Below the pieces are notes generated by a model that was given only the letters and a program-made list of their open reading frames with translations, ran no database searches and was not told the DNA's origin. Shown in pieces: positions 16,989-30,871 of a stretch of DNA of 34,495 nt. The first letter of the stretch is position 1; each line of letters opens with the position of its first letter. Source of the DNA: a virus; the IMG/VR virus record IMGVR_UViG_3300009159_002684, positions 1-34,495 of that record; one strand, 5' to 3'. Both the position numbers and the translations under genes were made by a program.

Positions 16989-16989
16989 A

Positions 16990-17211: not shown

Positions 17212-18197
17212 ACTGGGTAACTCGCACTTAAGAATTCGGCAAAACTAGTAGCATTATCGCTGATTCGATTAAGCTCGTACTTGCCGCAGAATTTAAGAAA
17301 TTGTGCGCCAATCATTGGGCGGCTCAGCGGCATACTGCCATTGGCAATGGTTTCTGCAATAAGCATTTTAATGTGTTCGGGCTGTGCAGTTAAGTCGATC
17401 AATTGACGATTGCGTTGATAATCATCAAGCACTTTATGTTCTTCGCCATTGTGGTCGGTCCAACGTTGCAACATTAGATTGTTCCAAGAGAATCCACCTC
17501 GATCCATATCGGCAAATGCTTCTTCAAGGCCAACTTTGTTTTTACTGCCCTTGGTACGCACACCGGGATAAGCAGAGAAGACATTGTCACTGCTATCGCC
17601 ACGCATACATTTTTCAAATAGAATAAATTTAGGATCGGGAATCTTCTTGGGCTCTTTAGTTTTCTTGTCGATAACTAGTTTACCTTTTTTGTCGAAGATT
17701 CCTTCAAGAGTGTGGAGTTCATCAGCGATTCCGTTATACTGGCGGACATTGGGTGCGAGCAATTGATAGAAGTCAGTGTCACTGCTAACGATGACGTGTT
17801 GATCCTCACGATGTGCTTGTATCCACCCTGCCACCAAGTCATCTGCTTCCAATTGCCCGTGCTGGAGTACAGTACAATTTGTGCGCTCTTGTAGGAATGA
17901 CTTAAGGGCATCAAATGCTTCCCAAAAGAGGCGATCTTCTTCCGCTTCTGTTTCGGTAAGTGAGGCCCTAGCCACTGCTCGATTCTTTTTATAAGGTTCA
18001 TAAAAATCCTTGCGCCAGCTACGCCCCTCTAAGCAGAAAACCACGTGGTCGGCTTTCTGTTCACGCCAGGCTTTATTAACACTGGCTAAGGTTACGTGTA
18101 TGGCAAAACCTAGACGGTCCCAAGTGTCGCTTTGACGACTTGCGCTATGTCTAGCACGAAAGAAAGTATTAGCAGTGTCTACGATTAAATATTTCAT
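17208..18197 (-). CDS. 5'-3' exonuclease (T4 RNase H / FEN-type)
   Basis: This 329-aa structure-specific 5' nuclease, as in T4 RNase H and T5 exonuclease, removes RNA primers and flaps at the replication fork. The N-terminal MKYLIVDTANTFFRARH has the first metal-binding Asp. The KNRAV region and LEADDLVAGW followed by VIVSSDTDFYQLL hold the further acidic cluster typical of the family. I start it at ATG 18197; an upstream in-frame extension to 18323 runs into the promoter and the upstream gene. A strong promoter (TTGACA-17-TATTAT) lies directly upstream. The downstream gene overlaps by 4 bp. Confidence 0.93.
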   Translation of the reverse strand: MKYLIVDTANTFFRARHSASRQSDTWDRLGFAIHVTLASVNKAWREQKADHVVFCLEGRSWRKDFYEPYKKNRAVARASLTETEAEEDRLFWEAFDALKSFLQERTNCTVLQHGQLEADDLVAGWIQAHREDQHVIVSSDTDFYQLLAPNVRQYNGIADELHTLEGIFDKKGKLVIDKKTKEPKKIPDPKFILFEKCMRGDSSDNVFSAYPGVRTKGSKNKVGLEEAFADMDRGGFSWNNLMLQRWTDHNGEEHKVLDDYQRNRQLIDLTAQPEHIKMLIAETIANGSMPLSRPMIGAQFLKFCGKYELNRISDNATSFAEFLSASYPV

Positions 18198-18203
18198 AGA
18201 GTA

Positions 18204-18232
18204 ATAATAGCATATTACCCTGGGCTTGTCAA
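18204..18232 (-). promoter_or_regulatory. Strong sigma70-like promoter of the exonuclease gene
   Basis: TTGACA (18227-18232), 17 bp, TATTAT (18204-18209), with TGC just before the -10, on the minus strand. It overlaps the stop of the preceding gene and ends 6 bp before the exonuclease ATG, so the leader would be nearly absent. Confidence 0.82.
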
Positions 18233-18633
18233 CTGATTTCTGCGCGACCGCCGCCAATATCTTTCCGAACGGTCTGTCTTGGGTTGTTGGCTTCGTACTG
18301 CTCATAGGTTTCCAAAACGACATTTCGGCAAACGTCCTGGAACCACCGGTCGACTATCTCGTTTTCGGGCTCGTTAACTTTAACTTGATATCCAGATCGG
18401 ACCAACTGTGCCAGGAACTTGTCGTTCCAATCTAATTCAAATGCACCTTGTCCGATGTTCTCTGGATCGATGTCTACACTTAAGATGCCAACCCAGGGCT
18501 CGCCCTTTTCGTTGGCAATGTCTTTTGATGTTTTCTTTGTAGCCTTGGGTTCTCTGACCTTGGGTGCAGGCTCTGCTTTGACTGGCTCGGGCGTTACTTT
18601 GTCCTTGCCAAATAGTTTATTGAATAGTCCCAT
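18229..18633 (-). CDS. Conserved T4-like phage protein
   Basis: This 134-aa protein has a basic, Pro/Lys/Ala-rich N-terminus after MGLFNKLFGK, then a conserved body (ELDWNDKFLAQLVRSGYQ, DRWFQDVCRNVVLETYEQY) that I recall in cyanophage hypothetical proteins. The start is ATG 18633 with AGGA 6 bp upstream, rather than the GTG at 18636. No catalytic residues are recognised. Confidence 0.8.
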   Translation of the reverse strand: MGLFNKLFGKDKVTPEPVKAEPAPKVREPKATKKTSKDIANEKGEPWVGILSVDIDPENIGQGAFELDWNDKFLAQLVRSGYQVKVNEPENEIVDRWFQDVCRNVVLETYEQYEANNPRQTVRKDIGGGRAEIS

Positions 18634-18642
18634 CACATTTCC

Positions 18643-18996
18643 TTACTTAACAAGATGTTGTGCCAACACCATTAAACTTAACCAAACCCAAATAGTATTA
18701 AAGCCAACTAGTGTGGGCAACAATTTTTTGTTACTAGCCCATATTAAAGTTAAACTGGTTGCCAGCGTTAAAAAGTACAACCACCAAATTTGAATACCAA
18801 ATACCAATCCTGGTATAATAATTATGGCTTTAGCAACCCAGCTGGCAAATTCTACTATGTTGTAGTTGGTCCAGTATTCGCGAGTAAACCACATACTGTA
18901 GCACTCACGAATCTTTGACAATCCACTATGACTATAGACACCACCAATTAAAACTAGCCACACCAAGGTGGCTATAATAATTTGATCACTAGTCAT
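18643..18996 (-). CDS. Four-helix membrane protein
   Basis: This 117-aa protein has hydrophobic segments at about 5-20, 47-63, 67-85 and 92-112, so it is an inner-membrane protein with four likely passes. Conserved-looking polar loops are WFTREYWTNYN and SNKKLL. The family is unknown. The start overlaps the QueE stop (TAATG), which ties it to the deazaguanine genes by expression but not necessarily by function. A transporter or holin-like role cannot be shown. Confidence 0.75.
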   Translation of the reverse strand: MTSDQIIIATLVWLVLIGGVYSHSGLSKIRECYSMWFTREYWTNYNIVEFASWVAKAIIIIPGLVFGIQIWWLYFLTLATSLTLIWASNKKLLPTLVGFNTIWVWLSLMVLAQHLVK

Positions 18997-19844
18997 TAAG
19001 TGCCCCAGGCGTTCTTGAACAGCGGCACCTGCAATCTGTCGCTGTAACGATAGCCTCGCTTCATTGCAAGCTCTGCGACGCGGCGATTATTAAGAGAGTA
19101 TACGCTTTCAACTCCACCAACAGGCATAAGATACACAGGACCTTTAAAGCCTGCACGACGATATTCTTGTACAGCACGATCTGCATCAATAACATCCTCC
19201 TGTGTGGCTACTACTAATTTTAAGTAAGCATAACCAACGTCTTCATAATCGCAAACAATCTCTGGACAAATGGCCTCTTCCCACTTCTCACCACTGCAAG
19301 GCAGTTTAGCACTGACACTGAAAGTGATTTCTCTACCTGGTTGCTCAGCAAGCCAAATACGCAAGTAGTTTTTAAAATTACCGCTTAATTTTTGAGTGCC
19401 ATTGGTTTCAAATGTAATTTCAGTTAATGGTGTCATACAGGGCTGGTCTAGTAGATCAGGATAAGCACGTTGCCAACCCAGTAATGGCTCTCCGCCTGTG
19501 ATAACAAGATGTTCTTTTTTCCACTCTCCGTATGGAAGCGTCTTAACAATATCTTTGGCAAGACCTTCTACAGCAACCATTGGGCTAAGATCCTTAAACA
19601 TTGGATCCCAGCTGGCGTAACTATCACATCCAGTTTTAACCAACGGAAGTTCGTTATAGTTGTTAAACATATGAACAACCTGGGAGATTTCTTCTCGCTC
19701 TGTGCTCAACTCACCTCTGGGCATACCAAATCCACCACAGGTAAAGTTGCAACCAAATGTGCGTAAGAACACACTAGGAACACCCATATAGCGTCCTTCA
19801 CCTTGAATGCTGTAGAACAGCTCTGCTACTTTGAGTTTACTCAT
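18996..19844 (-). CDS. queE: 7-carboxy-7-deazaguanine synthase QueE (radical SAM)
   Basis: This enzyme converts carboxy-tetrahydropterin to 7-carboxy-7-deazaguanine. The 282-aa protein has FYSIQGEGRYMGVPSVFLR and the radical-SAM GGEPLLG motif (ITGGEPLL). The cysteine triad is unusual: C32-x3-C36 (FGCNFTCGGF), then C73 in TGCDSYASWDP, which matches the WCDT-YAW part of canonical QueE. About 36 residues are therefore inserted between the second and third cysteines. It is larger than the usual roughly 210-225 aa. It is coupled by ATGA to the MazG-like gene and TAATG to the membrane protein. With FolE, QueD and DpdA it belongs to a predicted 7-deazaguanine DNA-modification route. Confidence 0.9.
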   Translation of the reverse strand: MSKLKVAELFYSIQGEGRYMGVPSVFLRTFGCNFTCGGFGMPRGELSTEREEISQVVHMFNNYNELPLVKTGCDSYASWDPMFKDLSPMVAVEGLAKDIVKTLPYGEWKKEHLVITGGEPLLGWQRAYPDLLDQPCMTPLTEITFETNGTQKLSGNFKNYLRIWLAEQPGREITFSVSAKLPCSGEKWEEAICPEIVCDYEDVGYAYLKLVVATQEDVIDADRAVQEYRRAGFKGPVYLMPVGGVESVYSLNNRRVAELAMKRGYRYSDRLQVPLFKNAWGT

Positions 19845-20128
19845 ACTTGAATTTCGCTTTCAAAAATATTAGACCATTGTTTAAGTTTTGCAATTTTATT
19901 ATTCGATGCAGTGAGTACTTCATCTTTGTCAACTAGGTTATGGTCAATACACAGGTTGATCATTGCCTGTAAGTCGCCTAGTTCTTCTGCCAAGTGTTGT
20001 CTGTTAGTCAACGGTTTACCTGGCTTAAAGTTGTCTAGGCCAAATCGACTAATTTTACTAACAGCAACAATTACCTCTGCACACTCTTCTTGTGTAATGT
20101 CAAGGATTTCTTTTTCTTTTGAATTCAT
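19841..20128 (-). CDS. MazG-like nucleotide pyrophosphohydrolase
   Basis: This 95-aa all-alpha NTP pyrophosphohydrolase fold has metal ligands EECAE (E15, E18) and EELGD (E49, D52), the E-x2-E ... E-x2-D pattern of MazG-type enzymes. Such enzymes hydrolyse nucleoside triphosphates to monophosphates and pyrophosphate. In phages they can reset host nucleotide alarmones or help set dNTP or modified-nucleotide pools. It is coupled to queE by ATGA and sits between queD and queE, so a role in the modified-base pathway is worth testing. Confidence 0.85.
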   Translation of the reverse strand: MNSKEKEILDITQEECAEVIVAVSKISRFGLDNFKPGKPLTNRQHLAEELGDLQAMINLCIDHNLVDKDEVLTASNNKIAKLKQWSNIFESEIQV

Positions 20129-20129
20129 A

Positions 20130-20324
20130 TTAGCTTCCGCAATCTATACGCCAGGGGCAAGTTGATAACATTTGTGTACTACAGTCATCCTCACCAAAAC
20201 AACTAGGTTGGTGTGTACGCTTTAATCTAATTACTGTATGTATCCGGCGCCGTTCTTCGCTATCACCAAACCCTGTATTACAGAGCTTGGCTTCTTCGTT
20301 TAATAGATCTTGTAGATTAGGCAA
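20130..20324 (-). CDS. Cys-rich small conserved phage protein
   Basis: This 64-aa protein has cysteines at about 15, 42, 48, 56 and 62 (QPSCFGEDDCSTQMLSTCPW), which may bind zinc or an Fe-S cluster. It starts with TTG at 20324, with GAGGA 8 bp upstream, overlapping the end of queD by 8 bp. The placement inside queD-MazG-queE suggests a link to deazaguanine synthesis, but no family is recognised. Confidence 0.65.
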   Translation of the reverse strand: MPNLQDLLNEEAKLCNTGFGDSEERRRIHTVIRLKRTHQPSCFGEDDCSTQMLSTCPWRIDCGS

Positions 20325-20871
20325 ACAAGTCCTCGTTCCATTCGCGATGGCCTTCGCGGAAAGCCATATTGGACTGTGTCTCTCTGACTTCTACACGATA
20401 GCACCACAAACGCTTGGCTTCACCCTCGCCCCACATCTCGGGAATGTAAACTCCATTGACATACTTGTAGAGCATATCACTAAGACCTTCACAACCTAGT
20501 TTAGGCAGTACTACAATCTTGGCCATATTCTTTTCTTGTAGCAGTTGGAATGTGGGCATATCAGGATCATCTGCGGCTACAATCAGCGTGTGATCAAATT
20601 GATCTTCTAGGATCTTTTTAAGTTCTTTTAGGCCACCGTAGTCCGCGGCCCAGTTACGAACGTCTAGGTCGTTGGTACCAAAGTAAAACTTCATTGAGAA
20701 GCTGTACCCGTGAATTAGGTTGCAATGACTGTCAGCTCGCCACTGACGATACGCACAAGGAAAAGCATCGTGATACTCTTTGGTGCTGGTATATTTGTAA
20801 CTGACTGGACCCACGTAAGGAAGGTTGTCTTCTAAGTGTCTGATTAAATCAGCTGTTGATGATTTTGCCAT
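20317..20871 (-). CDS. queD: QueD-type 6-carboxytetrahydropterin synthase
   Basis: This 184-aa T-fold enzyme should convert dihydroneopterin triphosphate (FolE product) to 6-carboxy-tetrahydropterin. The SHCNLIHGYSF block has the catalytic Cys50 and His54, and DHTLIV (about 93-98) is the family active-site His. The second zinc His of canonical HGH is Tyr56 here, and the usual first His position aligns to Cys39 or Tyr41, so the metal site is altered or its ligands are elsewhere. Some bacterial QueDs also carry HGY, so this may be a subfamily trait. An extended -10 promoter and AGGAG lie upstream. It is followed by the small Cys-rich gene, MazG-like and queE. Confidence 0.88.
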   Translation of the reverse strand: MAKSSTADLIRHLEDNLPYVGPVSYKYTSTKEYHDAFPCAYRQWRADSHCNLIHGYSFSMKFYFGTNDLDVRNWAADYGGLKELKKILEDQFDHTLIVAADDPDMPTFQLLQEKNMAKIVVLPKLGCEGLSDMLYKYVNGVYIPEMWGEGEAKRLWCYRVEVRETQSNMAFREGHREWNEDLFA

Positions 20872-20888
20872 TATTTTCTCCTATGTTA

Positions 20889-20894
20889 ATTATA
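20889..20894 (-). promoter_or_regulatory. Extended -10 promoter of queD
   Basis: TATGCTATAAT on the minus strand gives a TGN-extended consensus -10, 18 bp before the queD ATG. No good -35 is seen at 16-18 bp. The 81-bp gap to the upstream gene is otherwise without a clear element apart from ACTAAATA at 20950-20957. Confidence 0.65.
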
Positions 20895-20952
20895 GCATAG
20901 GCAGCAGAATTTGTATAGCGGGTTGATGCTCGGAGGCCGCTTTGACATCTAT

Positions 20953-21288
20953 TTAGTATTGTTTTTCAAGTTGATCCAAATGTTCTTGAAAATTATGCTG
21001 TTCAATATCATCTAAAAATTTAATCAAGAACATACTGGCCGCACTGGCATCAGCGCCATCAAAGTGCAACCTGGTTCCACCGGTCCCGTCCTGTCTATGA
21101 TAACAGAACTTGCCCTTACCATAACGAACACGATGTTTTACGTGTTCGCGTCCTCGATTATCCCAGACCGTGTCTTTGAACACTTCTCCGCCAACTAGCC
21201 TATACCATTCAATCATTTCTTCAGTTAGACTGCGGACTTCAATGTGTATTGGGTAGTGTACTTTACAGCCTGGCGGAAGTGGAATCAT
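20953..21288 (-). CDS. Hypothetical phage protein
   Basis: This 111-aa basic protein starts at ATG 21288 (MIPLPPGCKVHYPIHIEV), which overlaps the upstream stop as ATGA. It is strand-rich with an Arg/His/Lys centre (NRGREHVKHRVRYGKG) and a C-terminal helix. It may form a unit with the cupin gene before it. No recognised catalytic signature is present. Confidence 0.68.
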   Translation of the reverse strand: MIPLPPGCKVHYPIHIEVRSLTEEMIEWYRLVGGEVFKDTVWDNRGREHVKHRVRYGKGKFCYHRQDGTGGTRLHFDGADASAASMFLIKFLDDIEQHNFQEHLDQLEKQY

Positions 21289-21746
21289 TTTACGGCTCTC
21301 TCGGTAAGGTATTGTTCGTTTTGAATCCATTTGTTTTTAACTAGGAATCCCCATTCGCGTTGTTGAGGACCAGGCATAAACAATGTCCAACATTCTATAC
21401 TAGGATCTAATTCAATGCGATGGTAACTAGTTGCTTCGCATATTCTAAAACTGCCCGGACCTCTCCATTTTGCAATCTCTCCAATCTTTAATCCTTGATC
21501 ATTAAATTGCGGAATCCATTCCCAATATCCGCCTTTTAGGATAATAGTAGCATAAGGCCAAGGATGGTCGTGGACATCATCGGGATCTGATTTAAGAAAC
21601 CTATGAAGAAATATGTTAAATGGAAACCAAGTTCTATCTTTAAGAAAGAGATAATACCGCTCAAGGTAAGGCTCATTGTTTATCCTATCCATTACAATAC
21701 GTTTACGACCCAGGCTGTCAAGCCAATTTAAGAATGCTTTTTTCAT
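21285..21746 (-). CDS. Cupin-like protein
   Basis: This 153-aa cupin-fold candidate has DDVHDHPWPYATIILKGGYW (about 54-73), which matches the first cupin motif with two metal-binding histidines and the GG turn. ATSYHRIELD (about 104-113) offers the later His of the second motif, and aromatic residues line the strands. The family includes dioxygenases and sugar isomerases; the reaction here is unknown. It is coupled to both neighbours by ATGA. Confidence 0.78.
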   Translation of the reverse strand: MKKAFLNWLDSLGRKRIVMDRINNEPYLERYYLFLKDRTWFPFNIFLHRFLKSDPDDVHDHPWPYATIILKGGYWEWIPQFNDQGLKIGEIAKWRGPGSFRICEATSYHRIELDPSIECWTLFMPGPQQREWGFLVKNKWIQNEQYLTERAVK

Positions 21747-22018
21747 TCAGTACTCTTTAGTAAATGAAAGCTAATTAGTTTTCCTAGTTCTCGATCAAAG
21801 TTCTTCTTATTATCAGGAATGACATAGTAACTAGGACGATGATGATTCTCTGTTTTAATGGCAATAATGTATCCACCGGTAGCTTTAGTAACACCAATGG
21901 TGTAATTGGGTGCTATATCATTGCCGCCTAATGAAATAGTGTCAATGCTCATAGGTCCGAGACTGTACGAGCCCGATGAACCAGTGATACCAATTGTGCT
22001 CATATTGATCATACTCAT
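21743..22018 (-). CDS. Small Gly/Ser-rich phage protein
   Basis: This 91-aa protein has a Gly/Ser/Thr/Ile-rich first half (STIGITGSSGSYSLGPMSID) resembling small structural beta-repeat segments, and a second half with NHHRPSYYVIPDNKK and a C-terminal helix. It resembles, in style only, the protein at 29793-30143. It may be virion-associated. AGGA precedes the ATG. Function is unknown. Confidence 0.65.
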   Translation of the reverse strand: MSMINMSTIGITGSSGSYSLGPMSIDTISLGGNDIAPNYTIGVTKATGGYIIAIKTENHHRPSYYVIPDNKKNFDRELGKLISFHLLKSTE

Positions 22019-22019
22019 A

Positions 22020-22712
22020 TTAATCCTTTTTGTCGCCGGTTAGGTTTAACAGACTTAGGAAAATGTTAATAAAGTCCAGGTACAGTGTAATTGCACCCAT
22101 AATCTCTGCACCATCGTCTGCATTACTGTCGTATAACATTTCGCGTATTTGCTGAGTGTCATAGGCGGTCAATCCCAAGAAGATAACAATGGCCACAGCA
22201 CTGATCACCATTTGCATTACGCTACTGCCAATAAAGATGTTAATAACGCTGGCAATGATGATGGCAACGAGCCCAATGAACATAAACTTTCCAAGGCTGT
22301 CAAGGCTACGTTTAGTAAAGTAGCCATAGACGCTCATAATACCAAATAGGATACCGGCACCCATAAATGCACTAACAATACTGCCCATTGTGTATAGTGC
22401 AAAGATTGTGGCAAAACTTAACCCCATCAATCCTGCAAATGCGTGTAAGGTTAACACCTTGCCACCTTTAGAAATTCCCGAACTAAGCAAGTACGGAACA
22501 GCAAAAATAAACGCCAGTGGTGCAAGAATCACAATCCATTTTGTCCAGCCGGTAAAGAATAATTGCAGTAGAGCAGGACTGGTGCCCACTAGGTAACTAA
22601 CAATCATACTGTTAATTACAGCGGCCGCCATATGTCCGTATACACGGCCCATTGCTTGATTGATCTGATCTGCAGATCGGTATGTGATAGTGTCAATTGT
22701 ATCTGTAAACAT
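22020..22712 (-). CDS. Bax inhibitor-1/YccA-family membrane protein
   Basis: This 230-aa integral membrane protein has about seven hydrophobic segments and the family C-terminal block LTAYDTQQIREMLY. The N-terminus (DTITYRSADQINQAMGRVYG) fits bacterial YccA/YbhL-type members. Bacterial members are linked to membrane-protease (FtsH) control or ion leak; a phage copy might counter host membrane quality control or death. AAGGAG lies 6 bp before the ATG. It follows folE by 9 bp. Confidence 0.9.
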   Translation of the reverse strand: MFTDTIDTITYRSADQINQAMGRVYGHMAAAVINSMIVSYLVGTSPALLQLFFTGWTKWIVILAPLAFIFAVPYLLSSGISKGGKVLTLHAFAGLMGLSFATIFALYTMGSIVSAFMGAGILFGIMSVYGYFTKRSLDSLGKFMFIGLVAIIIASVINIFIGSSVMQMVISAVAIVIFLGLTAYDTQQIREMLYDSNADDGAEIMGAITLYLDFINIFLSLLNLTGDKKD

Positions 22713-22721
22713 TGTATCTCC

Positions 22722-23465
22722 TTATCTTGGTGCAAAATCTTGTTGCAGTTTAATGTTATCAAAAAACTCTTTCTTTGTACTTTGGTCTGTGTTGAACGCA
22801 CCTTTAAGTACAGTAGTCTGAGTCAGCGAACTATGTGCCATAATGCCACGATTCTCACAGCATCCGTGTACTGCTTGAACATAAACGCCTACGTCTCGAG
22901 CATCTGTGGCCTTCATAATTTCTCGAGCTATATCATTACACAATTCTTCCTGGAGGGTACCTCGACGAGCACACCATTGTGCAATACGTGTATATTTGGA
23001 AAGTCCTATGAGCTTCTCAGCCGCGATAATACCAATATAAGCAACCCCAGTAACGGGTTGATGATGATGACTACACATACTGCGAAGTTCACTACGAACC
23101 ACAAGCATACCTTCATACCTATCTGTAGTATCGTTTGGAAACGCTGTTGCATCCGGCCTTGGTTCATATCTGCCTGCCATTATTTCATTAAAGTACATTT
23201 TAGCCAGTCGGCGTGCTGTGCCTTTTGAATTGGGATCGTTTTTGCGATCAATTAATAGTGCATCTAGTACACCTTCGAATGCTTCTGCGGCTTCGTTGAT
23301 AAGTTTTTCTTTATCGCCGTCCCACAGGTACTCACTGATGTTGTCTCCGGCCCAAAATCTTTTGCCGTCACGTGTCATTTTAGCGCGAATATACCCGCCT
23401 AGATAGCCTTCTTCATATCCACCATCGCCTGCCATTGCGTCCAGGCCTGTTTCTTTATTTGTCAA
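22722..23465 (-). CDS. folE: GTP cyclohydrolase I FolE
   Basis: This enzyme opens GTP to dihydroneopterin triphosphate, the first step to 7-deazaguanine (and folate). The 247-aa protein has MCSHHHQPVTG (zinc ligands C131 and H134), EKLIGLSKYTRI (GTP/cluster block), ARRGTLQEEL and VHGCCENRG (His200 and third zinc ligand C202). All core residues are present. The start is TTG at 23465, with GGAG 10 bp upstream; an ATG at residue 11 would drop a charged extension. It is preceded by a strong promoter and followed by the BI-1 gene. Confidence 0.95.
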   Translation of the reverse strand: MTNKETGLDAMAGDGGYEEGYLGGYIRAKMTRDGKRFWAGDNISEYLWDGDKEKLINEAAEAFEGVLDALLIDRKNDPNSKGTARRLAKMYFNEIMAGRYEPRPDATAFPNDTTDRYEGMLVVRSELRSMCSHHHQPVTGVAYIGIIAAEKLIGLSKYTRIAQWCARRGTLQEELCNDIAREIMKATDARDVGVYVQAVHGCCENRGIMAHSSLTQTTVLKGAFNTDQSTKKEFFDNIKLQQDFAPR

Positions 23466-23504
23466 TTGTATGTTTCTCCGAGTTATTGTCGAGGATGACA
23501 GCTT

Positions 23505-23533
23505 ATTGTAATGTATTTAGAATCTTTAGTCAA
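23505..23533 (-). promoter_or_regulatory. Promoter of folE (TTGACT-17-TACAAT)
   Basis: TTGACT (23528-23533) overlaps the galE stop codon. A 17-bp spacer and TACAAT (23505-23510) follow on the minus strand, 40 bp before the folE start. The spacer contains TTCTAAATACATT, also found before the clamp gene. Confidence 0.8.
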
Positions 23534-24521
23534 CTAGTAATGGAAGGTTTTTTTGCCAATTCCACGTTGTATTAACTATATTTCTAATGTCACTATTTCT
23601 AGGCCGCCATTGTGTTTCACTTTGGAATAGATCGCTATTGGCAACCAAAATGTCTGGATCTCCAATGCGTCTATCTTTAACTTCATAGTTGATCTTCTCT
23701 CCAACTACTTCTTCACAGGTTTGCATAATGGTCTGGTTACTGTGACCGTGTCCTGTGCCTAAATTGTATGCACCGAATTGCCCTGGCTCAAATCGATCTG
23801 CTAAACATACTGCCTCTAGGTGTGCGTGGGCAATGTCAATTACGTGTAGATAGTCTCGTATGCAGGTACCGTCGGGCGTGTTGTAGTCGTTGCCATATAA
23901 ATGAAAATTTCTTTTATTTTGGTAAGCACTTAACACCCTAGGGATCATATGAGTGTCATCGACTACGTGCCCTAAAATACCATCAGGGTCGCATCCACAG
24001 GCATTAAAATATCGTAGTGCAATACCTTTGAATCCGTGTGCGCTACAATGACCTTGAATAATCTTTTCACAAAACAGTTTACTCCAACCGTAAGGGCTGA
24101 TTGGATTTTGTGTGCTAGATTCTGTGATGTTATCAGCATCAGCTGGAATGCCATATGTAGCGGCACTGCTACTAAAAATGATTTTGCCAGACCACCCGCC
24201 TAGGTTGTGCAGATCTTCTAGCATTGAGTTGGTCTTGCCACTGTTGTTGTCGTAGTAAGTGTATGGGTCGCTAAGACTTGGTCCAACCAGACTAGTGCCG
24301 GCGCAGTGAATAATAGCGTCGGGTTGGTGTATATTTGCCGCTCCAACAGTTATACCATCAACAAAGTCATTGACTAACAGCTCATCTAGATAATAAGCAG
24401 ACTGCAAAACTGTTTGACTTTTGTCAATGCCAACAACATAGTATCCAGCATCCTTAAAGACCTTGGCAGTATGCCCGCCAATGAATCCCATTGCACCAGT
24501 GATGATCACAGTCTTATTCAT
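23526..24521 (-). CDS. galE: UDP-glucose 4-epimerase-like GalE
   Basis: This 331-aa extended SDR has a Rossmann motif TGAMGFIGG (8-16), SSSAATYG (117-124), and Y144-x3-K148 (YGWSK), plus family stretches LRYFNACGCDPDG and RDYLHVIDIAHAH. These match GalE, which interconverts UDP-glucose and UDP-galactose, or a near relative acting on another UDP-sugar. The length fits GalE (about 338). It is coupled by ATGA to the small basic gene upstream and followed by folE's promoter. It may feed the GT-B glycosyltransferase two genes upstream. Confidence 0.92.
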   Translation of the reverse strand: MNKTVIITGAMGFIGGHTAKVFKDAGYYVVGIDKSQTVLQSAYYLDELLVNDFVDGITVGAANIHQPDAIIHCAGTSLVGPSLSDPYTYYDNNSGKTNSMLEDLHNLGGWSGKIIFSSSAATYGIPADADNITESSTQNPISPYGWSKLFCEKIIQGHCSAHGFKGIALRYFNACGCDPDGILGHVVDDTHMIPRVLSAYQNKRNFHLYGNDYNTPDGTCIRDYLHVIDIAHAHLEAVCLADRFEPGQFGAYNLGTGHGHSNQTIMQTCEEVVGEKINYEVKDRRIGDPDILVANSDLFQSETQWRPRNSDIRNIVNTTWNWQKNLPLLVD

Positions 24522-24712
24522 TTTTGCTTTTTTCTTTTGGGCTTTTCAACGGGTTGGATAGCAACACTGGCAATGGCTTCTCTTACATCACGTAGCAATG
24601 CTTCATCATCCCACTCTAGTTTAGTAGTTCCATCAGAAAAAGTAGTAACTGTCAAGTGACTACCTTTAACCACGCCACTGGGATCTTGTTCTTTCTTTTT
24701 ACGTGTTGCCAT
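24518..24712 (-). CDS. Small basic conserved phage protein
   Basis: This 64-aa protein has Lys-rich ends and a central globular stretch (HLTVTTFSDGTTKLEWDDEA then LLRDVREAIASV) that I recall in small phage hypothetical proteins. AAAGGAA precedes the ATG. It may be coupled to galE (ATGA, 24518-24521). No function is known. Confidence 0.7.
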   Translation of the reverse strand: MATRKKKEQDPSGVVKGSHLTVTTFSDGTTKLEWDDEALLRDVREAIASVAIQPVEKPKRKKQK

Positions 24713-24723
24713 TTTAATTCCTT

Positions 24724-25899
24724 TTAATATTTAGATTCACTAGTGTGTTTACGATAATCTGTGCCCATACGCAACCATTGTGCGCCTTTATCTTCCATAA
24801 TGTCAATGATGCGATCTATGGTGCCATCGTTATAGTTACTGATCTCGCCTAACCTTGGATGTGGTGCTTCTAACAATGTATCCAATTTGTTCAACGCATC
24901 CTCTATGCTCCAGGGCACATAGAGCCTTGTATGGTCATTTGAAAAAGTCTCAGGAAAAGACCTATAAGCAGGGTATAGAACATTACATCCCAAAGCATCC
25001 GCTTCACTGACAGTGTTTGAAACCCAGTCTTGTAAAGCACAATTAAACACGACACGGCTATCGTTAACAATGTTATAGTAGTCATTCTTTTCCAAATCCT
25101 CGTGTAACTTTAATCGGCCCACTGCCTGCATACTACGAGTACGTTGCATATAACTGTCGTTGTTAGACTTTAGCTTTGCACCACTGCACACAGCAAACTC
25201 TACTGTGCTAACAGGATTACGTTCGAAGTAAGCATCTATTAGATCCATATAGAAGTCTGGTTGCTTCTCTTGGTCCCAACGTGCGCTAAACACCACACGC
25301 TTCTTACGTTCACTAAATGGTTTAATAATAGGCACACGACTTTGTACCTCTGCCTTGCCAAATGCAAGACCTGAAATATTGTAGATAGGAGCCTTCCAAC
25401 CTGCAATCTTCATATGCGCCACCATTTCCTCATTGGTGGCCAGTACGCCAGTGGCAAAGCTATCAACCATCTTTTCGTAAAGACTCATCCACTCACTCAT
25501 ACCCCATACGTGTACAAAATCGTCCGGGTCAATGGTCTGTGCTAGACAACGTACAAAGATCTGTGGCCTTAGGTGTGTGGGAGTTTGATCCATAATGTAT
25601 GGCAAACTTTCGATGCCTGGTTGGAACATATCCTCAAAGTAGACTACATCGCTGGCAGTTACTTCTCCGGCCTTCATCATACGCACCAGGTTCATAAGCT
25701 GGCTCATACCAAAGTATGTGCGTCCGTGTGCATCTAACACTTGCCCTGTGACAATAGCTTGATCGTTGCTGAGTGTTTCGCCTGGGACAATAACATAGTC
25801 AATGCCTCTACGTTCAAACACTGCACGATTCCACTCTTGTAACTGTAGTGTATATCTTGCCTTGTAGGGCTCTAGGCCCATATAAAATAGTTTTCTCAT
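24724..25899 (-). CDS. GT-B fold glycosyltransferase
   Basis: This 391-aa protein has N- and C-terminal Rossmann-like halves. The C-terminal half has VVFSARWDQEKQPDFYMDL (sugar-nucleotide-binding type, as in family 1/4-like transferases) and SNTVSEADALGCNVLYP, the E-x-(D/A)-LG acceptor/donor block. It probably transfers a sugar from a nucleotide donor to phage DNA, a virion or host surface polymer; the acceptor cannot be read. The N-terminus (MRKLFYMGLEPYKARYT) fits phage relatives I recall. It sits next to galE, with one small gene between them. Confidence 0.8.
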   Translation of the reverse strand: MRKLFYMGLEPYKARYTLQLQEWNRAVFERRGIDYVIVPGETLSNDQAIVTGQVLDAHGRTYFGMSQLMNLVRMMKAGEVTASDVVYFEDMFQPGIESLPYIMDQTPTHLRPQIFVRCLAQTIDPDDFVHVWGMSEWMSLYEKMVDSFATGVLATNEEMVAHMKIAGWKAPIYNISGLAFGKAEVQSRVPIIKPFSERKKRVVFSARWDQEKQPDFYMDLIDAYFERNPVSTVEFAVCSGAKLKSNNDSYMQRTRSMQAVGRLKLHEDLEKNDYYNIVNDSRVVFNCALQDWVSNTVSEADALGCNVLYPAYRSFPETFSNDHTRLYVPWSIEDALNKLDTLLEAPHPRLGEISNYNDGTIDRIIDIMEDKGAQWLRMGTDYRKHTSESKY

Positions 25900-25900
25900 T

Positions 25901-26311
25901 TTAAACTGTCTTAATAGAATTCAGTATGCGCTTGGCAGTTTCGGCGTCTAATGTTGGAATTGGAGCAACCTTTAATTGCTCTTGATGCCAACTGTAGCTG
26001 TCGTTGTGCCACCCCTTGGCGGAATCGTACTTTATTGATTTATCACTGTAGGCTAACCTGTCCAGTGACTCTTCGAGTTTACGTGTACGACGATTTAAAT
26101 GGTTGACATCATCAACTAACCTTCGCAAGGGCCCTTTTGATGCGCCTTCGGCAAATTTGTCGGGTTCGGGTTTAGTTAAGATAACCACCATCAATAGACT
26201 GCGTAGTGCATCAACAATTCTAGGATCATTGCTAGTTAATGCTGTATCAAACATATCAATGAATCGATCCAAGTCAAAATCTGACTGATCCTTGACCCGT
26301 AACCCACTCAT
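25901..26311 (-). CDS. Conserved helical phage protein
   Basis: This 136-aa, mostly helical protein (FIDMFDTALTSNDPRIVDAL, then VDDVNHLNRRTRKLEESLDR coiled coil) has a C-terminal segment ETAKRILNSIKTV. Similar proteins occur in T4-like phages from memory. The start overlaps the upstream stop as TAATG. The function is unknown. Confidence 0.75.
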   Translation of the reverse strand: MSGLRVKDQSDFDLDRFIDMFDTALTSNDPRIVDALRSLLMVVILTKPEPDKFAEGASKGPLRRLVDDVNHLNRRTRKLEESLDRLAYSDKSIKYDSAKGWHNDSYSWHQEQLKVAPIPTLDAETAKRILNSIKTV

Positions 26312-26541
26312 TACGCTCTCCTAGTTTGGCGGATAATATAGCCCCAGTTGTCACGTGGCCACTTGCCACGCTTAGTACGGGCCAAGTCGCCCCAGGGACC
26401 ACGATCGTTGTATAGATCGGCTTCGTTAAAGGGGTAACCCTGTTTAACACAAAACTCTTTGTACTCTTCCAAGTCCTCGAGGATACGATTAACTTCTGGC
26501 TTCATACGCAGATATTTTTTGAGCCAATTTGGTTGTGCCAT
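26311..26541 (-). CDS. Small basic phage protein
   Basis: This 76-aa protein is rich in Lys, Arg, Trp and Tyr (QPNWLKKYLRMKPEVNRI, then GPWGDLARTKRGKWPRDNWG). Possible nucleic-acid-binding character is inferred only from composition. It is coupled to the next gene by TAATG. Confidence 0.68.
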   Translation of the reverse strand: MAQPNWLKKYLRMKPEVNRILEDLEEYKEFCVKQGYPFNEADLYNDRGPWGDLARTKRGKWPRDNWGYIIRQTRRA

Positions 26542-26551
26542 TTTTTATTCC

Positions 26552-27007
26552 TTAGATAGCAATGGATTGATACGGGCGAGAAACTTCATATTCGATGAGG
26601 CAGCCGTTCTCACCATCTTCGGCTACCTCAATCCACACTGCACGACCGGGATACCGATCAGCAATTTGTAGATACAGGTCATCGGCGATCATCTCGCAGG
26701 ATTTAAAATCTAACGACAAAACACCTTGTGCGCTACTATACAGTTGTTCAAGCCACCGTTTGAATTGAATAAACTCCACATCTCTGTCGTTGTGGAAAAC
26801 GTCAATCCAAACCCTGAAATGAAAAATATGGCGATGAGGATAGCCAAGAAACGATACATCATAATTATCTCCGGTTGCTAGTGCTGGGTCGGTTGCGGCA
26901 GCAGGGTATTTGTGGATTCCTTCTTTGCGGAATGTGATCCAGATTTTACGTTTTGCATCCTGTTTGATTCTATCAACAGTTGCTCTTTGTTCTTGAGTTA
27001 GTGCCAC
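26552..27007 (-). CDS. T-fold (QueD-like) phage protein
   Basis: This 151-aa protein looks like a diverged member of the tunnelling-fold family that includes QueD, FolE and QueF. YPHRHIFHFRVWIDV (57-70, with H58 and H60) resembles the HGHsy zinc-binding strand. EFIQFKRWLEQLY resembles the DF-xxLK helix. SCEMIADDLYLQI (103-115) resembles the PTxENLA helix, and WIEVAEDGENG the late beta strand with a Glu. A catalytic Cys-His pair is not obvious. It could act on a pterin or deazapurine beside dpdA, or be an inactive paralogue. The start is GTG at 27007. Confidence 0.65.
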   Translation of the reverse strand: MALTQEQRATVDRIKQDAKRKIWITFRKEGIHKYPAAATDPALATGDNYDVSFLGYPHRHIFHFRVWIDVFHNDRDVEFIQFKRWLEQLYSSAQGVLSLDFKSCEMIADDLYLQIADRYPGRAVWIEVAEDGENGCLIEYEVSRPYQSIAI

Positions 27008-27336
27008 GCTTTTAGCCTTTCTAATGTTACGATTTCTTCTAAGGTTGTACCAAAACTGCCGCCCTCGGGGATGACATACAATGTGTTATTAACACGATCG
27101 GTTTTCTCATCATAGATATGTGTTTCAATAACACTACCACCTTGTGCGGCATACAGATTAAAAGTCATTGAGTGACTTCTAATTTCGCCACTGCTCGAGA
27201 CTGTCCTATTACGTCCACGTTTAGTAGCGGACAGTAGGTTACCAATGGCATTACCGTCGGACTCGTCACGCTCCAACATCCTGTTTGGGTAGCTGGACAC
27301 CCACTGTAAAAGTTTGAATAGATATTTCTGTATCAT
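26998..27336 (-). CDS. Hypothetical phage protein
   Basis: This 112-aa protein has a basic N-terminus (MIQKYLFKLLQWVSSYPNRM) and a strand-rich body (SHSMTFNLYAAQGGSVIETH, then LYVIPEGGSFGTTLEE). It begins within an ATGA overlap of the preceding gene and ends in a 10-bp overlap with the T-fold gene. No function is recognised. An internal ATG at residue 20 is a possible shorter start. Confidence 0.68.
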   Translation of the reverse strand: MIQKYLFKLLQWVSSYPNRMLERDESDGNAIGNLLSATKRGRNRTVSSSGEIRSHSMTFNLYAAQGGSVIETHIYDEKTDRVNNTLYVIPEGGSFGTTLEEIVTLERLKAWH

Positions 27337-27884
27337 TTAACTATTTGGTCTTGTGTGTATTTAGACCAGTCTGTAAAGTTGCGGCGGGCTTTTAAATCAT
27401 TTAGACTATGGCACCAGACGCCGGGATTGGTGGCCTTAAAGTCTTTGTCGTCTAGCTTGATTGTAGCATTATATCCTAGTAGTTGTAAATAGGGCAATTT
27501 CACCGAAATCATTGGAATGAAGTTGTGATGCTCGCACAGGCCACCTTCAAGCAGACCTTCTACACAAGAAACATCAATGTCTAGAGTACAGAAGTATCCC
27601 TTTTCTAAAAAGTAAGTGACCATTGATTCCCAGGGCTGCCACCTACCAGAATCATTGGTATCTAATTTAGGAAAACTCATATTAGCGCCAAAGTAAATGT
27701 GCTCAATGTGTTTAGATTTATCTTCGTAAGAATTGAAGTCATCCAACCAATCTTGTATTTCGTTAAAAGGTTGTACACCAACCACAAATAGAGTTTTCTT
27801 TCCATATGCAGGTGTGTGCTCTACTTCTGTGCCAGTAAAAAATGTAACAGCATTGGTTACACCAGTTTCATAGTCTCTATTCAT
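27333..27884 (-). CDS. Conserved phage protein near dpdA
   Basis: This 183-aa protein has TGTEVEHTPAYGKKTLFVVG (17-36), IEHIYFGANMSFP and LLEGGLCEHHNFIPMISVKL. It resembles a cyanophage hypothetical protein I recall. The CEHH segment echoes zinc-binding loops but no complete site is visible. It lies between the T-fold gene and dpdA, a position that suggests a possible role in the modified-base system. This is inference from context only. Confidence 0.75.
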   Translation of the reverse strand: MNRDYETGVTNAVTFFTGTEVEHTPAYGKKTLFVVGVQPFNEIQDWLDDFNSYEDKSKHIEHIYFGANMSFPKLDTNDSGRWQPWESMVTYFLEKGYFCTLDIDVSCVEGLLEGGLCEHHNFIPMISVKLPYLQLLGYNATIKLDDKDFKATNPGVWCHSLNDLKARRNFTDWSKYTQDQIVK

Positions 27885-27885
27885 T

Positions 27886-28092
27886 TCAGCGATCGTCCTC
27901 TAAATCGACACGTTGATTTTCTTCGTATTGTTCTCTTCGAAGCCTACTAAGTTCATCCAATACTGCTAGTTTTTGTTTTTTAAGATTGTGTAATTGTGTG
28001 TCGGTAAACTTACCGGTACGTTCAAGAGTATCAACTTCGTTGTCTAGTCTTGTGTGTTCTTTTTCCAAATGTTTAATGCGTCCTTCAATCAT
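27886..28092 (-). CDS. DUF465/YdcH-like small coiled-coil protein
   Basis: This 68-aa, almost wholly helical protein is highly charged with heptad-like Leu and Glu spacing (RIKHLEKEHTRLDNEVDTLE). It resembles the YdcH/DUF465 family of small coiled-coil proteins. It lies directly after dpdA with no gap and before the conserved protein at 27333. Function is unknown. Confidence 0.7.
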   Translation of the reverse strand: MIEGRIKHLEKEHTRLDNEVDTLERTGKFTDTQLHNLKKQKLAVLDELSRLRREQYEENQRVDLEDDR

Positions 28093-29619
28093 TTATACCT
28101 CCAGTTGGTTAAGTTTATCTTCGTCTAACACAGGCTCCTCGTAGGCCACGTATTCAAACAATGCGTTAAACATAGTATTGGCATTTACAGTTTTCTTACC
28201 TTTAAAGCCACGAGTGCCTACAATTTCCATCCAATACTTACTATAGTGTTCAATGATAGCCTCTGAACTGGCACGGTCTGGTGCGGCAAAGATAGCTTCT
28301 ACAATGTCTTTGAACTTTTCTCCGCCCGGCCCACTGTAGCGCATCATTGCAGGGTACTCGCCTAGGTCATATTGACGATTGGCACGTTGTACTGCTTCTA
28401 GGTGTGTCCAAACATTATGACCCATTAACAGTGCATAACTAAAACTATCCCAACTAGTCTTGCCTTCCTTGCCAATCTTATTTAGGTCGCCGGGCTTGTA
28501 GATACAAATATCTTTAAGGGTCAATTTCTTACTAATTGGGCTTTCATCAAACACAGGCCAATGACCTTCTGCAATGGTAGCAGGACCATAAGGTCTAGTG
28601 TCGGTGCTAAACTTCTTATCGTCGATGCTGGGCGCCATACGATAAGACCACTTCTCGTTGTGTGTTAAATCTATTTGGTGATAGACTTGCCCGTTCGCAG
28701 TCGCCAAAAACGGACTAGCACAATCAAAGCTAATAGTAAAAGAAGGATTGACATATTTTCTCACTGCTCGTTGAATATCGGTTAGTAGCACAGCCCACTC
28801 TAATTTGCTAGTACCCAAGAAGTGCATCCAATCGTGCAGGCCCTCTTGTAGCAAGTTGTCGTAACGTAGTGCTACCAAGCGTTTTAATACCAAGTGTACG
28901 TCACACATATTTTGGCCACCCATTGCCCAACCATCAAAGTGTGTATCTGGGTACACAGTTGGGTCGCAGAACTCTTTCATCTCTTGATACCAAGCCTCTG
29001 CACTGCCGTGGTTGTCACCTTGCAGTACATTTAGGAACTTGGCTCCGCCATTGTTCTTGCCCTTGCGGTTAGCCATAAAGTAATTGTTATTAAACTTAGT
29101 AGCATCCACAGCTTCTTCTAGTGTGGTAATCTGGCAAGCCACACTAGCTTTCTTATCGTGGATGACCCAGGTTGGAATATCTAGAATCATTCCATAGTCT
29201 GCAATACCATCTAACCATTTAAGCACAGCATCACGTTTCTTTTGTGCCTTGGGACAACCTGAATTGGCCTTCCAGTCGCCTTCCCACAGGCCCTTGGCAA
29301 TTTGGAACCCACCAGAGTCGCCCAGTATAAAAGTTCCTGGCTCTCGATTACGAACCATATCTTCACTCCAGTCTTGTTTAGCAAGATCAAGATTGGCGTG
29401 TCCCCCGGAGTACAAACTCCATTTGTATGGAAATAATCCTTTAGAACTATTAAGCCAATTGAGTTGTTCCATATCAGTGATACCCTGCGGTAACCTAGTT
29501 GGGTCGACATAATTCTCGTTGCGTTGTTTGCCTATGAATGTAGCATAAAATCCGCTAATAGCAGGCAGGAACACAGCATAGTCTGATTGTTTGGCTGTTA
29601 GATTGTCTTGTTCAGTCAT
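28093..29619 (-). CDS. dpdA: DpdA-like DNA guanine transglycosylase (TGT family)
   Basis: This 508-aa member of the tRNA-guanine transglycosylase superfamily has the base-recognition motif GDSGGFQ (100-106), VLQG (198-200 region), WAMGG (230-234) and the nucleophile motif SFDCASPF (D298). It lacks the CxCxxC zinc site of bacterial tRNA TGT, which fits phage DpdA proteins. Known DpdA enzymes replace guanine in DNA with preQ0 or a related 7-deazaguanine. With FolE, QueD and QueE also present, DNA modification is the best reading. It is coupled at its start (8-bp overlap) to a small gene. Confidence 0.9.
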   Translation of the reverse strand: MTEQDNLTAKQSDYAVFLPAISGFYATFIGKQRNENYVDPTRLPQGITDMEQLNWLNSSKGLFPYKWSLYSGGHANLDLAKQDWSEDMVRNREPGTFILGDSGGFQIAKGLWEGDWKANSGCPKAQKKRDAVLKWLDGIADYGMILDIPTWVIHDKKASVACQITTLEEAVDATKFNNNYFMANRKGKNNGGAKFLNVLQGDNHGSAEAWYQEMKEFCDPTVYPDTHFDGWAMGGQNMCDVHLVLKRLVALRYDNLLQEGLHDWMHFLGTSKLEWAVLLTDIQRAVRKYVNPSFTISFDCASPFLATANGQVYHQIDLTHNEKWSYRMAPSIDDKKFSTDTRPYGPATIAEGHWPVFDESPISKKLTLKDICIYKPGDLNKIGKEGKTSWDSFSYALLMGHNVWTHLEAVQRANRQYDLGEYPAMMRYSGPGGEKFKDIVEAIFAAPDRASSEAIIEHYSKYWMEIVGTRGFKGKKTVNANTMFNALFEYVAYEEPVLDEDKLNQLEV

Positions 29620-29803
29620 TTTTATTTAATAGCACCCAGGTTTTTAATTCAGGCGGTAGTTCGTTTTCGATTTCTTTACAGCGTTCTTTTAATTGAAGAA
29701 TTGTGGTGTGTAAGTGCCCAGTGCTAGTCGGGCGCACACGTTCTCGAAGAATGGCTATCTCTTGTTGCAAAACTTGCCACCTAGTTAACGGATCAATCAG
29801 CAT
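29612..29803 (-). CDS. Small helical phage protein
   Basis: This 63-aa, helical, charged protein has LTRWQVLQQEIAILRERV and LQLKERCKEIENEL. It overlaps dpdA's start by 8 bp and the preceding gene's end by 11 bp, so all three are co-translated. No domain is recognised. Confidence 0.65.
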   Translation of the reverse strand: MLIDPLTRWQVLQQEIAILRERVRPTSTGHLHTTILQLKERCKEIENELPPELKTWVLLNKND

Positions 29804-30143
29804 TGCCAGCTTCTTTGGTCAGTATGTCTATAATTTGGAACTGCTCGTAGGCCTGTCTAAGACCTGGGTGCCTTTCCATACGTGCCTTGAGAGCACTTTC
29901 TTCATTCATCTTATTAAACGCCCAGTCAATGGCACTTTGTGCCACGCCAGATAATCCTATACTTGGCGAAGACATATTAAGTTGCATCCAATTGTTACCA
30001 TCAAATACTTCCATTTTTTGCATAGAAGTATTATAACGCATATTGCCTACGCCTTGAGCACCTGAGTACCCATTGACATAGGTACTAGCACTACTCCCGC
30101 CTATGGTAATATACGGAGAAGATGAATGGATTGAGTCTATCAT
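29793..30143 (-). CDS. Small phage protein with tail-fibre-like motif
   Basis: This 116-aa protein starts at ATG 30143, overlapping the clamp stop as ATGA (an upstream ATG at 30173 lies inside the clamp gene). The first part has Ser/Gly/Tyr-rich beta sequence and GNMRYNTSMQKMEVFDGNNW, typical of phage tail-fibre or short structural repeats. The second half is helical (AIDWAFNKMNEESALKARME). A virion role is plausible; its location in a replication block is odd. Confidence 0.72.
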   Translation of the reverse strand: MIDSIHSSSPYITIGGSSASTYVNGYSGAQGVGNMRYNTSMQKMEVFDGNNWMQLNMSSPSIGLSGVAQSAIDWAFNKMNEESALKARMERHPGLRQAYEQFQIIDILTKEAGNAD

Positions 30144-30871
30144 TTTGTCTGTGCAGGCAGTGTGTAGTTCCAAATAGCAATACCGCTGTTAACAGTAATC
30201 TGTGCGGCACCTTCATCACTGATACGCAACATTTTGTCACCGGGCAAGTTTAAGATGCTGATAACAACACCAACTGGCCAAGCCCAGGCCTTGCTCAAAC
30301 TGCCACTAACGCCATTGGCAAACACAAAGTTACCTGCGTGACTACTATGGTCACCAAAGTAAAACTCTAGATCGCCTTTGTTAGTTTTGGCGATAAAAGT
30401 AGTTTCTTCACTGTTAGCACTGGCTTGGAACTTCAAACGTTGAATGCCAAGATTGGTTGGCTCAACTTCTACACCCCACTTGACGCCCTTGAACTTTACA
30501 GTTTTAAGTTTGTCATTGATAATTTCTGCAGTCATAAAACGATAGTCGTTTTTAAAGTCGCCAGTTTTGTTTTCAAAGTGGATGCCAACTGGAACATCCT
30601 CTCCATTACGATTCTGTTTAAGAATATCTGTCTTAGCGCCTTCTTTGTATTCGCTAATGTTAAGCACTGTATTGAGCTTGCCCAAGTTAGGCATACCAAA
30701 GGTGCCCATAAAGTCTGCTACGGGGCCTGCAAACTTGGCCTCAACCATAACGCTACGATCTTCTGCAATAGCATTTACAGTGGTTTCTTGTTCAGTGCCA
30801 ACGACCTTAACTAGGTCAATGACGCCTAAACCGTGTGTGTGTTGTACAATATCTAAAAGTTGGTCTTTCAT
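30140..30871 (-). CDS. 45: Sliding clamp (gp45-type)
   Basis: This 243-aa protein is similar in size to T4 gp45 (228 aa), the ring that tethers DNA polymerase and supports late transcription. Characteristic stretches are FYFGDHSSHAGNFVFANGVS, KAWAWPVGVVISILNLPGDK and the C-terminal NSGIAIWNYTLP. It lies directly downstream of the gp43-type polymerase, with no clamp-loader genes between them, unlike the T4 order. Its promoter is at 30889-30917, with AGGAG 7 bp before the ATG. Confidence 0.85.
   Translation of the reverse strand: MKDQLLDIVQHTHGLGVIDLVKVVGTEQETTVNAIAEDRSVMVEAKFAGPVADFMGTFGMPNLGKLNTVLNISEYKEGAKTDILKQNRNGEDVPVGIHFENKTGDFKNDYRFMTAEIINDKLKTVKFKGVKWGVEVEPTNLGIQRLKFQASANSEETTFIAKTNKGDLEFYFGDHSSHAGNFVFANGVSGSLSKAWAWPVGVVISILNLPGDKMLRISDEGAAQITVNSGIAIWNYTLPAQTK

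Follow-up and report, generated by a model that had tools for sequence, protein, structure and literature searches.

How does a phage complete a modified guanine for its DNA when it carries FolE, QueD, QueE and a DpdA-like transglycosylase and no visible QueC? This question is raised by a gene group at positions 18996-29619 of a stretch of viral DNA of 34,495 nucleotides (hereafter the window), which comprises positions 1 to 34,495 of the IMG/VR record IMGVR_UViG_3300009159_002684. The window makes up one end (34.5 kb) of a 93,878-bp IMG/VR record, to which it is 100% identical over positions 1-617, 99.994% over 618-18617 and 100% over 18096-34495. Our analysis leads us to favor, with some reserve, a QueC-less module with a variant ending, in which a protein with a predicted T-fold would act, likely as a decarboxylase, on 7-carboxy-7-deazaguanine (CDG) before insertion by DpdA. 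The T-fold gene and QueC are almost mutually exclusive among 21 named phage records.

The FolE, QueD and QueE enzyme families make CDG from GTP. An earlier reading of the window from its letters (the sequence-only reading) had found these three genes together with a DpdA and a MazG-like enzyme, and had understood the set as a 7-deazaguanine DNA-modification route without QueC. It was right on both counts: all five genes lie on the minus strand where it had put them, DpdA being recognized by the fold of a model and the others by Pfam or PHROG matches. QueE (18996-19844) matches PHROG 2076 'QueE-like' with an E value of 3.3e-49, and the MazG-like nucleotide pyrophosphohydrolase of 95 amino acids (19841-20128) matches PF03819 with 25.1 bits (cut-off 22). 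QueD, a 6-carboxytetrahydropterin synthase of 184 amino acids (20317-20871), scores 53.2 bits with PF01242 (cut-off 22.4) and E 2e-35 with PHROG 2389; FolE, a GTP cyclohydrolase I of 247 amino acids (22722-23465), scores 136.7 bits with PF01227 (cut-off 27), its listed TTG start being uncertain. By homology, FolE, QueD and QueE would convert GTP to CDG. A defective QueE was considered and ruled out: the third cluster cysteine, displaced by an insertion, is retained in a CDS motif that lies 37 residues later, and a similar insertion is present in the QueE of phage nt-1 and of other large phages. The DNA of nt-1 contains dPreQ0, as stated in passages of PMC6884629. Two relatives have an NAD synthase gene directly after queE (L083, 1408-2229; L168, 1414-2181).

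A QueC match (PF06508) was found neither in the window nor in the 93,878-bp record. The search covered 30 records, namely the 93.9-kb record itself and 29 relatives, with lengths of 34-353 kb. QueC was over the cut-off in none of a first set of 18 (the 93.9-kb record and 17 relatives) and in one of the 12 further records (G023), where the frame is an NAD synthase (170 bits versus 22.4 bits for QueC). QueE matched in 17 records of the first set, in two of them over 34 residues only, and in all 12 of the second. Thirteen weak PF06508 matches in related loci (L081-L085 and L168-L175) were read, some partly; ten of these were scanned with Pfam, and five turned out to be NAD synthases while five had no QueC match at E values up to 0.01. 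A QueC motif scan missed two of four positive controls and was not used. QueF (PF14489) was over the cut-off in 0 of 22 records, the 93.9-kb record included, with weak matches in two. The sequence-only reading had seen neither QueC nor QueF in the window, and the search of the 93.9-kb record likewise gave no match for either. Its suggestion that QueC lies elsewhere in the genome is now unlikely, since no convincing QueC occurs in the 93.9-kb record and its 29 relatives, records that may be incomplete. It had named this option beside supply of QueC by the host and insertion of CDG as such; a T-fold gene that replaces QueC, an option absent from that reading, fits better than these three. We also rejected a hidden QueC for the group as far as these records go; the ten weak matches scanned with Pfam are NAD synthases or no QueC.

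The same reading had described the pathway genes as split into two clusters. They form one same-strand stretch, and the supposed gap contains two genes that had been overlooked, one for a T-fold protein (26552-27007) and one for a glycosyltransferase (24724-25899), both of which are linked to DpdA in relatives. The name 'preQ0-type' given to the pathway is probably wrong, as the gene group includes this T-fold gene, which nearly excludes QueC among the 21 named phage records and is swapped against it between phages X1 and Ps15.

The T-fold gene, on the minus strand, encodes 151 amino acids. The protein has no Pfam match, and its PHROG is without a name. Its AlphaFold model has a predicted local distance difference test score (pLDDT) of 86.1. 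The top Foldseek match is E. coli QueD (4ntk, E 1.5e-4), and a comparison with VIA placed 6-pyruvoyl-tetrahydropterin synthase (PTPS) on top (Z 11.7, 93 residues, root-mean-square deviation (rmsd) 2.1). The other VIA matches listed are PTPS or QueD, QueF-like proteins, dihydroneopterin aldolase, GTP cyclohydrolase, urate oxidase and one uncharacterised protein. Judged by this model, the protein is a T-fold of the PTPS/QueD type. We aligned 15 sequences, i.e. the window, three IMG/VR loci and 11 named phages. His32, His58 and His60 are invariant in this alignment and stand in the PTPS order; we take them to be zinc-type histidines, in the same order as those of QueD. QueD also has a catalytic cysteine between the histidines and an Asp-His pair. 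Neither of these is conserved across the 15 sequences, and both are missing from the window protein. A few members carry a cysteine at varying places, or LDH before the SCE motif; these features are not conserved. The motifs that are conserved are HNDRD.EF, SCE and ED.E. We conclude that 26552-27007 encodes a predicted T-fold protein with an active site unlike that of QueD. A PDB search with the alignment gave nothing useful.

Relatives of the T-fold protein are frequent in IMG/VR (at least 598), and tblastn detected it in 26 of 50,697 phage records. The genes in these 26 records are annotated as hypothetical, and some carry the name of a fused or overlapping gene. In Vibrio phage Bakedbeans (L194, 3221-4372) and Chryseobacterium phage MA9V-3 (L196, 5491-6372), the T-fold forms the C-terminal portion of a larger protein.

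Twelve of the 26 records were used to examine the relation between the T-fold gene and QueC. The PA5oct type is represented by one of its 11 records, ACP17 by one of two and the Cellulophaga phages by two of five; the remaining eight were all included. Nine phages with QueE or the pathway served as controls. Four of them (nt-1, 9g, CP220 and CAjan) were chosen as known carriers of QueC; the other five (GR11A, GR7B, Peetri, NCTB and 1.081.O, the last being related to nt-1) were taken from the QueE list with their QueC status unchecked. QueC was over the cut-off in only one of the 12 named records with the T-fold gene and in all nine without it. A T-fold profile match in each of the 12 follows from their selection; among the nine controls there was none. 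This exclusion has a Fisher p of 3.4e-5, which becomes 2.5e-4 when close relatives are merged and 0.0037 with only the controls of unchecked QueC status, GR11A and GR7B being merged. Weak QueC scores occur on both sides: phage X1 has a weak match below the cut-off, and the QueC-family match of the control NCTB is also weak (35.9 bits).

A comparison of Xanthomonas phage X1 with Stenotrophomonas phage Ps15 illustrates the exchange. The two are 67% identical in FolE and 74% in QueE; their DpdA proteins are 33% identical. The gene order in Ps15 is FolE ... QueC-DpdA-QueE, and its whole record has no T-fold match. The order in X1 is FolE ... glycosyltransferase-DpdA-T-fold-QueE. Between these phages, the final enzyme of the pathway apparently changed hands along with the transglycosylase.

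The DpdA-like DNA guanine transglycosylase (28093-29619, minus strand, 508 amino acids) has no Pfam, PHROG or NCBIfam match, and its assignment comes from a model. The AlphaFold model was computed from an alignment of the window with 22 relatives and has a mean pLDDT of 69.5. Its top Foldseek match is the archaeosine tRNA-guanine transglycosylase 1j2b (E 3.7e-5). All 50 matches listed by VIA-align are tRNA-guanine transglycosylases or subunits thereof (Z 13.3-14.9 over 287-315 residues, rmsd 4.7-5.8). Two stretches, DSGGFQ (101-106) and SFDCASPF (297-304), are invariant or nearly so among 28 sequences; we presume that DSGGFQ and FDCASPF resemble the stretches with the two active-site aspartates of the tRNA-guanine transglycosylase family. 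According to the model, 28093-29619 is a DpdA of the tRNA-guanine-transglycosylase fold. Identity to the window protein is 34% in PA5oct-type phages and 31% in Phosso. The DpdA proteins of BUCT-ZZ01, ACP17 and X1 are of another type, which the window DpdA profile does not match. PDB sequence searches with the protein and with its alignment gave nothing useful, and no relative turned up when viral contigs were scanned with the PA5oct DpdA as query.

The linkage of these genes was followed in IMG/VR loci. When loci were retrieved with DpdA, the T-fold gene was found in 44/44 of those with 4.5 kb downstream present and the glycosyltransferase in 38/38 of those with 7 kb. Retrieval with the T-fold protein, leaving out four contigs already in the DpdA set, gave DpdA in 65/65 loci with 4.5 kb upstream present and the glycosyltransferase in 51/51 with 4 kb downstream. 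With two types of glycosyltransferase as the start, the T-fold gene was present in 63/64 and 48/48 loci with 2.5 kb on both sides; L287 is the sole locus without a T-fold match, even at a relaxed threshold. Of the 74 DpdA loci that reach 9.5 kb downstream, 73 have FolE, a count for the DpdA and T-fold sets together in which four contigs may be doubled. A separate count found the T-fold gene in 22 of 22 records, of which 12 had been retrieved by the T-fold protein itself, so that only the 10 retrieved with DpdA count as a test. Genome collections contributed 11 loci, probably from phage contigs that were binned into bacterial or archaeal genomes. The glycosyltransferase follows the T-fold gene in eight of them; L259, among the three that lack it, stops about 2 kb past the T-fold gene. 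Two T-fold homologues (L258 and L262) come from contigs, maybe viral, in bins of Nitrosarchaeum and Nitrosotalea. The named phages are better evidence than these linkage counts.

The glycosyltransferase (24724-25899, minus strand, 391 amino acids) is GT4-like and a candidate DNA-base glycosyltransferase. Glyco_trans_1_2 matches 11 of 21 members of its family at E values up to 0.01; the window member reaches 24.5 bits with a cut-off of 25. Next to it is a gene for a GalE-like sugar-nucleotide epimerase (23526-24521, minus strand; TIGR01179 with 284.9 bits, cut-off 262.3). In 84 of 93 loci the glycosyltransferase is followed by an epimerase homologue no more than 3 kb away; these loci are a mixture of those retrieved with DpdA and with the T-fold protein. 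By tblastn the glycosyltransferase was detected in four of the 50,697 phage records (BUCT-ZZ01, ACP17 twice and X1), and its profile adds PA5oct and Phosso, which makes five of the 12 T-fold phages versus none of the nine others (Fisher p 0.045). The gene adjoins the T-fold gene in four of these five phages; in X1 it is one gene away, with DpdA between them. The glycosyltransferase of BUCT-ZZ01 is 67.5% identical to that of the window and its T-fold protein 37%; these values, together with the second type of DpdA, imply that the parts have been combined more than once. A PDB search with the glycosyltransferase alignment gave nothing useful. Scans of viral contigs found no relative of the X1 glycosyltransferase and a single contig, 100% identical, for that of ACP17.

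Together, these data suggest the following pathway. The T-fold protein (26552-27007) would take CDG in the place of QueC and remove the carboxyl group to yield 7-deazaguanine, and DpdA would then swap guanine in the phage DNA for this product. The glycosyltransferase and the epimerase would act in the same pathway, perhaps by putting a sugar on the modified base, and the glycosyltransferase probably does belong to it. The modification may serve as a protection against host nucleases. T-fold enzymes bind guanine- and pterin-like molecules, and a CDG decarboxylase named DpdL, as well as the bases dDG and dCDG, was reportedly described by Cui in 2023. Because of these two points, decarboxylation is our first choice for the T-fold reaction, which we nevertheless propose only tentatively. 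A literature search with the name DpdL gave no useful match.

Several points weigh against this pathway. That the T-fold protein corresponds to DpdL is a conjecture. What we observed is the gene content, the folds as predicted by models, the rarity of QueC beside the T-fold gene and the linkage of the genes; every reaction is inferred from these. A profile comparison between the T-fold family and QueD gave a probability of 10%, so that sequence alone reveals no kinship; the DpdA model is of moderate confidence only, given its mean pLDDT. Phage D479 has the T-fold gene as well as a QueC-family frame over the cut-off, the latter without the SGGxDS motif. QueD was found in just 56 of the 74 DpdA loci that reach 9.5 kb downstream. 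All 30 records searched for QueC are linear and maybe incomplete, with weak matches in G019, G020, G023 and G030 that were not examined. Furthermore, the IMG/VR loci are the best-scoring relatives and belong mostly to one broad group, which means that their counts are not independent. The glycosyltransferase has no match in six of 11 distinct T-fold phages; phiST and RHph_I1_18 are examples of T-fold phages that lack a match. Finally, 7-deazaguanine has no obvious handle for a sugar, and decarboxylation and glycosylation fit badly together; a sugar would suit dCDG or another product better.

The last two of these points concern the sugar. A glycosylated 7-deazaguanine, for which DpdA would insert CDG or the T-fold product and the GT4-like enzyme and adjacent epimerase would add the sugar, is conceivable and rather doubtful. 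It is a serious possibility, if short of an expectation, that the two enzymes have another task, for example the glycosylation of virion proteins or of the host surface, in which case the base would be plain dDG or similar and the position of the glycosyltransferase a matter of chance or of expression timing; this would be compatible with the proposed decarboxylation. The six T-fold phages that have no match, the modest association among the 21 records (Fisher p 0.045) and the missing sugar handle are all as expected if the enzymes have such another purpose. What it has to face is a profile that matches 0/9 phages without the T-fold gene, five matches that are at the T-fold gene or one gene from it, and a glycosyltransferase that accompanies T-fold proteins down to 37% alike and two types of DpdA. 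The sugar would find its handle more easily if DpdA inserted CDG unchanged (dCDG) and the T-fold protein had another role, e.g. on a pathway intermediate or as an aid to QueE or DpdA, since the carboxyl group could be used by the neighbouring glycosyltransferase. Among the genes of known function, none takes the pathway beyond CDG, insertion of CDG was allowed for the QueC-less phage Bipper in passages of Hutinet 2019 (PMC6884629), and carboxymethylcytosine, a carboxyl-bearing base, is reported in part of PMC12783734 as a handle for further DNA modification. We still consider unchanged CDG unlikely, as it leaves the presence of the T-fold gene where QueC is missing without a reason.

The near-exclusion of QueC and the T-fold gene also remains without explanation if a host QueC converts the phage-made CDG to preQ0 and DpdA inserts dPreQ0. 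Host supply has a precedent in passages of PMC6884629, where dpdA of 9g alone gave dPreQ0 in E. coli plasmid DNA. It would be odd, however, for a phage group with its own FolE, QueD and QueE to omit the last step, and we regard this as improbable. Least of all do we expect the pathway genes to feed queuosine in host tRNA instead of phage DNA. This option is raised by Hutinet 2019, in passages of PMC6884629, for phages that have pathway genes and no DpdA. The module here includes a DpdA-like gene with a predicted tRNA-guanine-transglycosylase fold, such a gene is found in all 65 loci retrieved with the T-fold protein, and QueF is over the cut-off in 0/22 records, the two weak matches being below it.

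The remaining genes of the window provide its context. Between DpdA and the T-fold gene lies a gene for a conserved protein of 183 residues (27333-27884, minus strand) with a tblastn match in 76 of 80 related loci and homologues in PA5oct-type phages and ACP17. A PDB search with its alignment gave nothing useful, as matches to designed repeat proteins span just 32 residues; a relationship to the 'glycosylase' of Phosso was rejected after a comparison showed no likeness. A cupin-type protein (21285-21746, minus strand; PHROG 4786 'cysteine dioxygenase', E 2.1e-38) has a match in only two of the 80 related loci, some of which end short of that point. A Bax1-I family membrane protein is encoded between QueD and FolE (22020-22712; PF01027, 176.2 bits). 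Upstream of DpdA and outside the pathway are two replication neighbours on the minus strand. One is a sliding-clamp-like protein (30140-30871; PHROG 12062, unknown function), whose profile matches the Phosso gene with a sliding-clamp annotation. The other is a family B DNA polymerase (30932-33592; PHROG 262, E 3.4e-189). Among the best 20 of 2,593 records, the nearest counterparts of this polymerase are in phages of about 350 kb, including Sinorhizobium phage Phosso (51%) and Agrobacterium phage Atu_ph07, and 19 of these 20 records measure 321-490 kb. The relatives of the locus sit on contigs up to 342-353 kb. These relatives make it probable that the sequence is part of the genome of a T4-like jumbo phage. 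Elsewhere the window encodes a radical SAM protein (504-1550, PF04055), a 2OG-Fe(II) oxygenase-like protein (33671-34312, PF13759), a row of DegT aminotransferase, second sugar epimerase and thymidylate synthase (2538-5622), and a DUF2201 metallopeptidase/VWA protein (7762-9048) that adjoins an AAA ATPase matching MoxR weakly (9118-10245).

DNA modifications of phages shape which bacterial defences work, and they are a source of new DNA chemistry. Our analysis turns the missing QueC into a testable rule, according to which a protein of predicted QueD fold stands in for it, both among named phages and across hundreds of IMG/VR stretches, and it names a specific glycosyltransferase that travels with the T-fold protein. 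Both roles can be tested in phages with named hosts, ACP17, X1 and BUCT-ZZ01 among them. Confirmation of the sugar would add to the hypermodified bases a new type, in which a guanine analogue carries a sugar, spread over hundreds of viral sequences. Should it fail, a function for the T-fold family, annotated as hypothetical in the 26 phage records, would still be worth finding. The kind of pathway is known, and passages of Hutinet 2019 (PMC6884629) already allow CDG insertion for a QueC-less phage. In the titles and abstract openings among the matches listed, and in some passages, we found neither the near-exclusion between the T-fold gene and QueC nor the dedicated glycosyltransferase; part of this finding may already be in Cui 2023. 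A DNA base with a sugar on a guanine analogue appears in none of the titles or abstract openings among the matches listed.

How, then, does the locus compare with known systems? The pathway of the dDG and dCDG phages reportedly ends at CDG (Cui, 2023), where QueC is said to be unneeded and a separate enzyme to remove the carboxyl group. The T-fold protein shares its predicted fold and the order of three histidines with QueD and PTPS (4ntk, 2dtt); unlike these, its family conserves neither a cysteine between the histidines nor an Asp-His pair, and its conserved motifs are others. The alpha and beta DNA glucosyltransferases of T4 act on hydroxymethylcytosine. Like the window enzyme, whose gene is linked to such a pathway, they are phage glycosyltransferases tied to DNA-base modification (PMC13216743). 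The likeness is drawn as an analogy; the window enzyme differs in being GT4-like, and its base would be a 7-deazaguanine. With the preQ0 and archaeosine phages 9g, CAjan and nt-1, as presented in passages of PMC6884629, the window shares FolE, QueD, QueE and DpdA in one phage. It differs from them in that no QueC, Gat-QueC or QueF was found; it has the T-fold gene in the place of QueC, and a linked glycosyltransferase. PA5oct-type Pseudomonas phages and Phosso are among the nearest named phages by DpdA and the T-fold protein, Phosso also by its polymerase. In the annotations of these phages DpdA and the T-fold protein appear as hypothetical, and the gene order is DpdA-glycosyltransferase-T-fold in PA5oct and T-fold-glycosyltransferase in Phosso.

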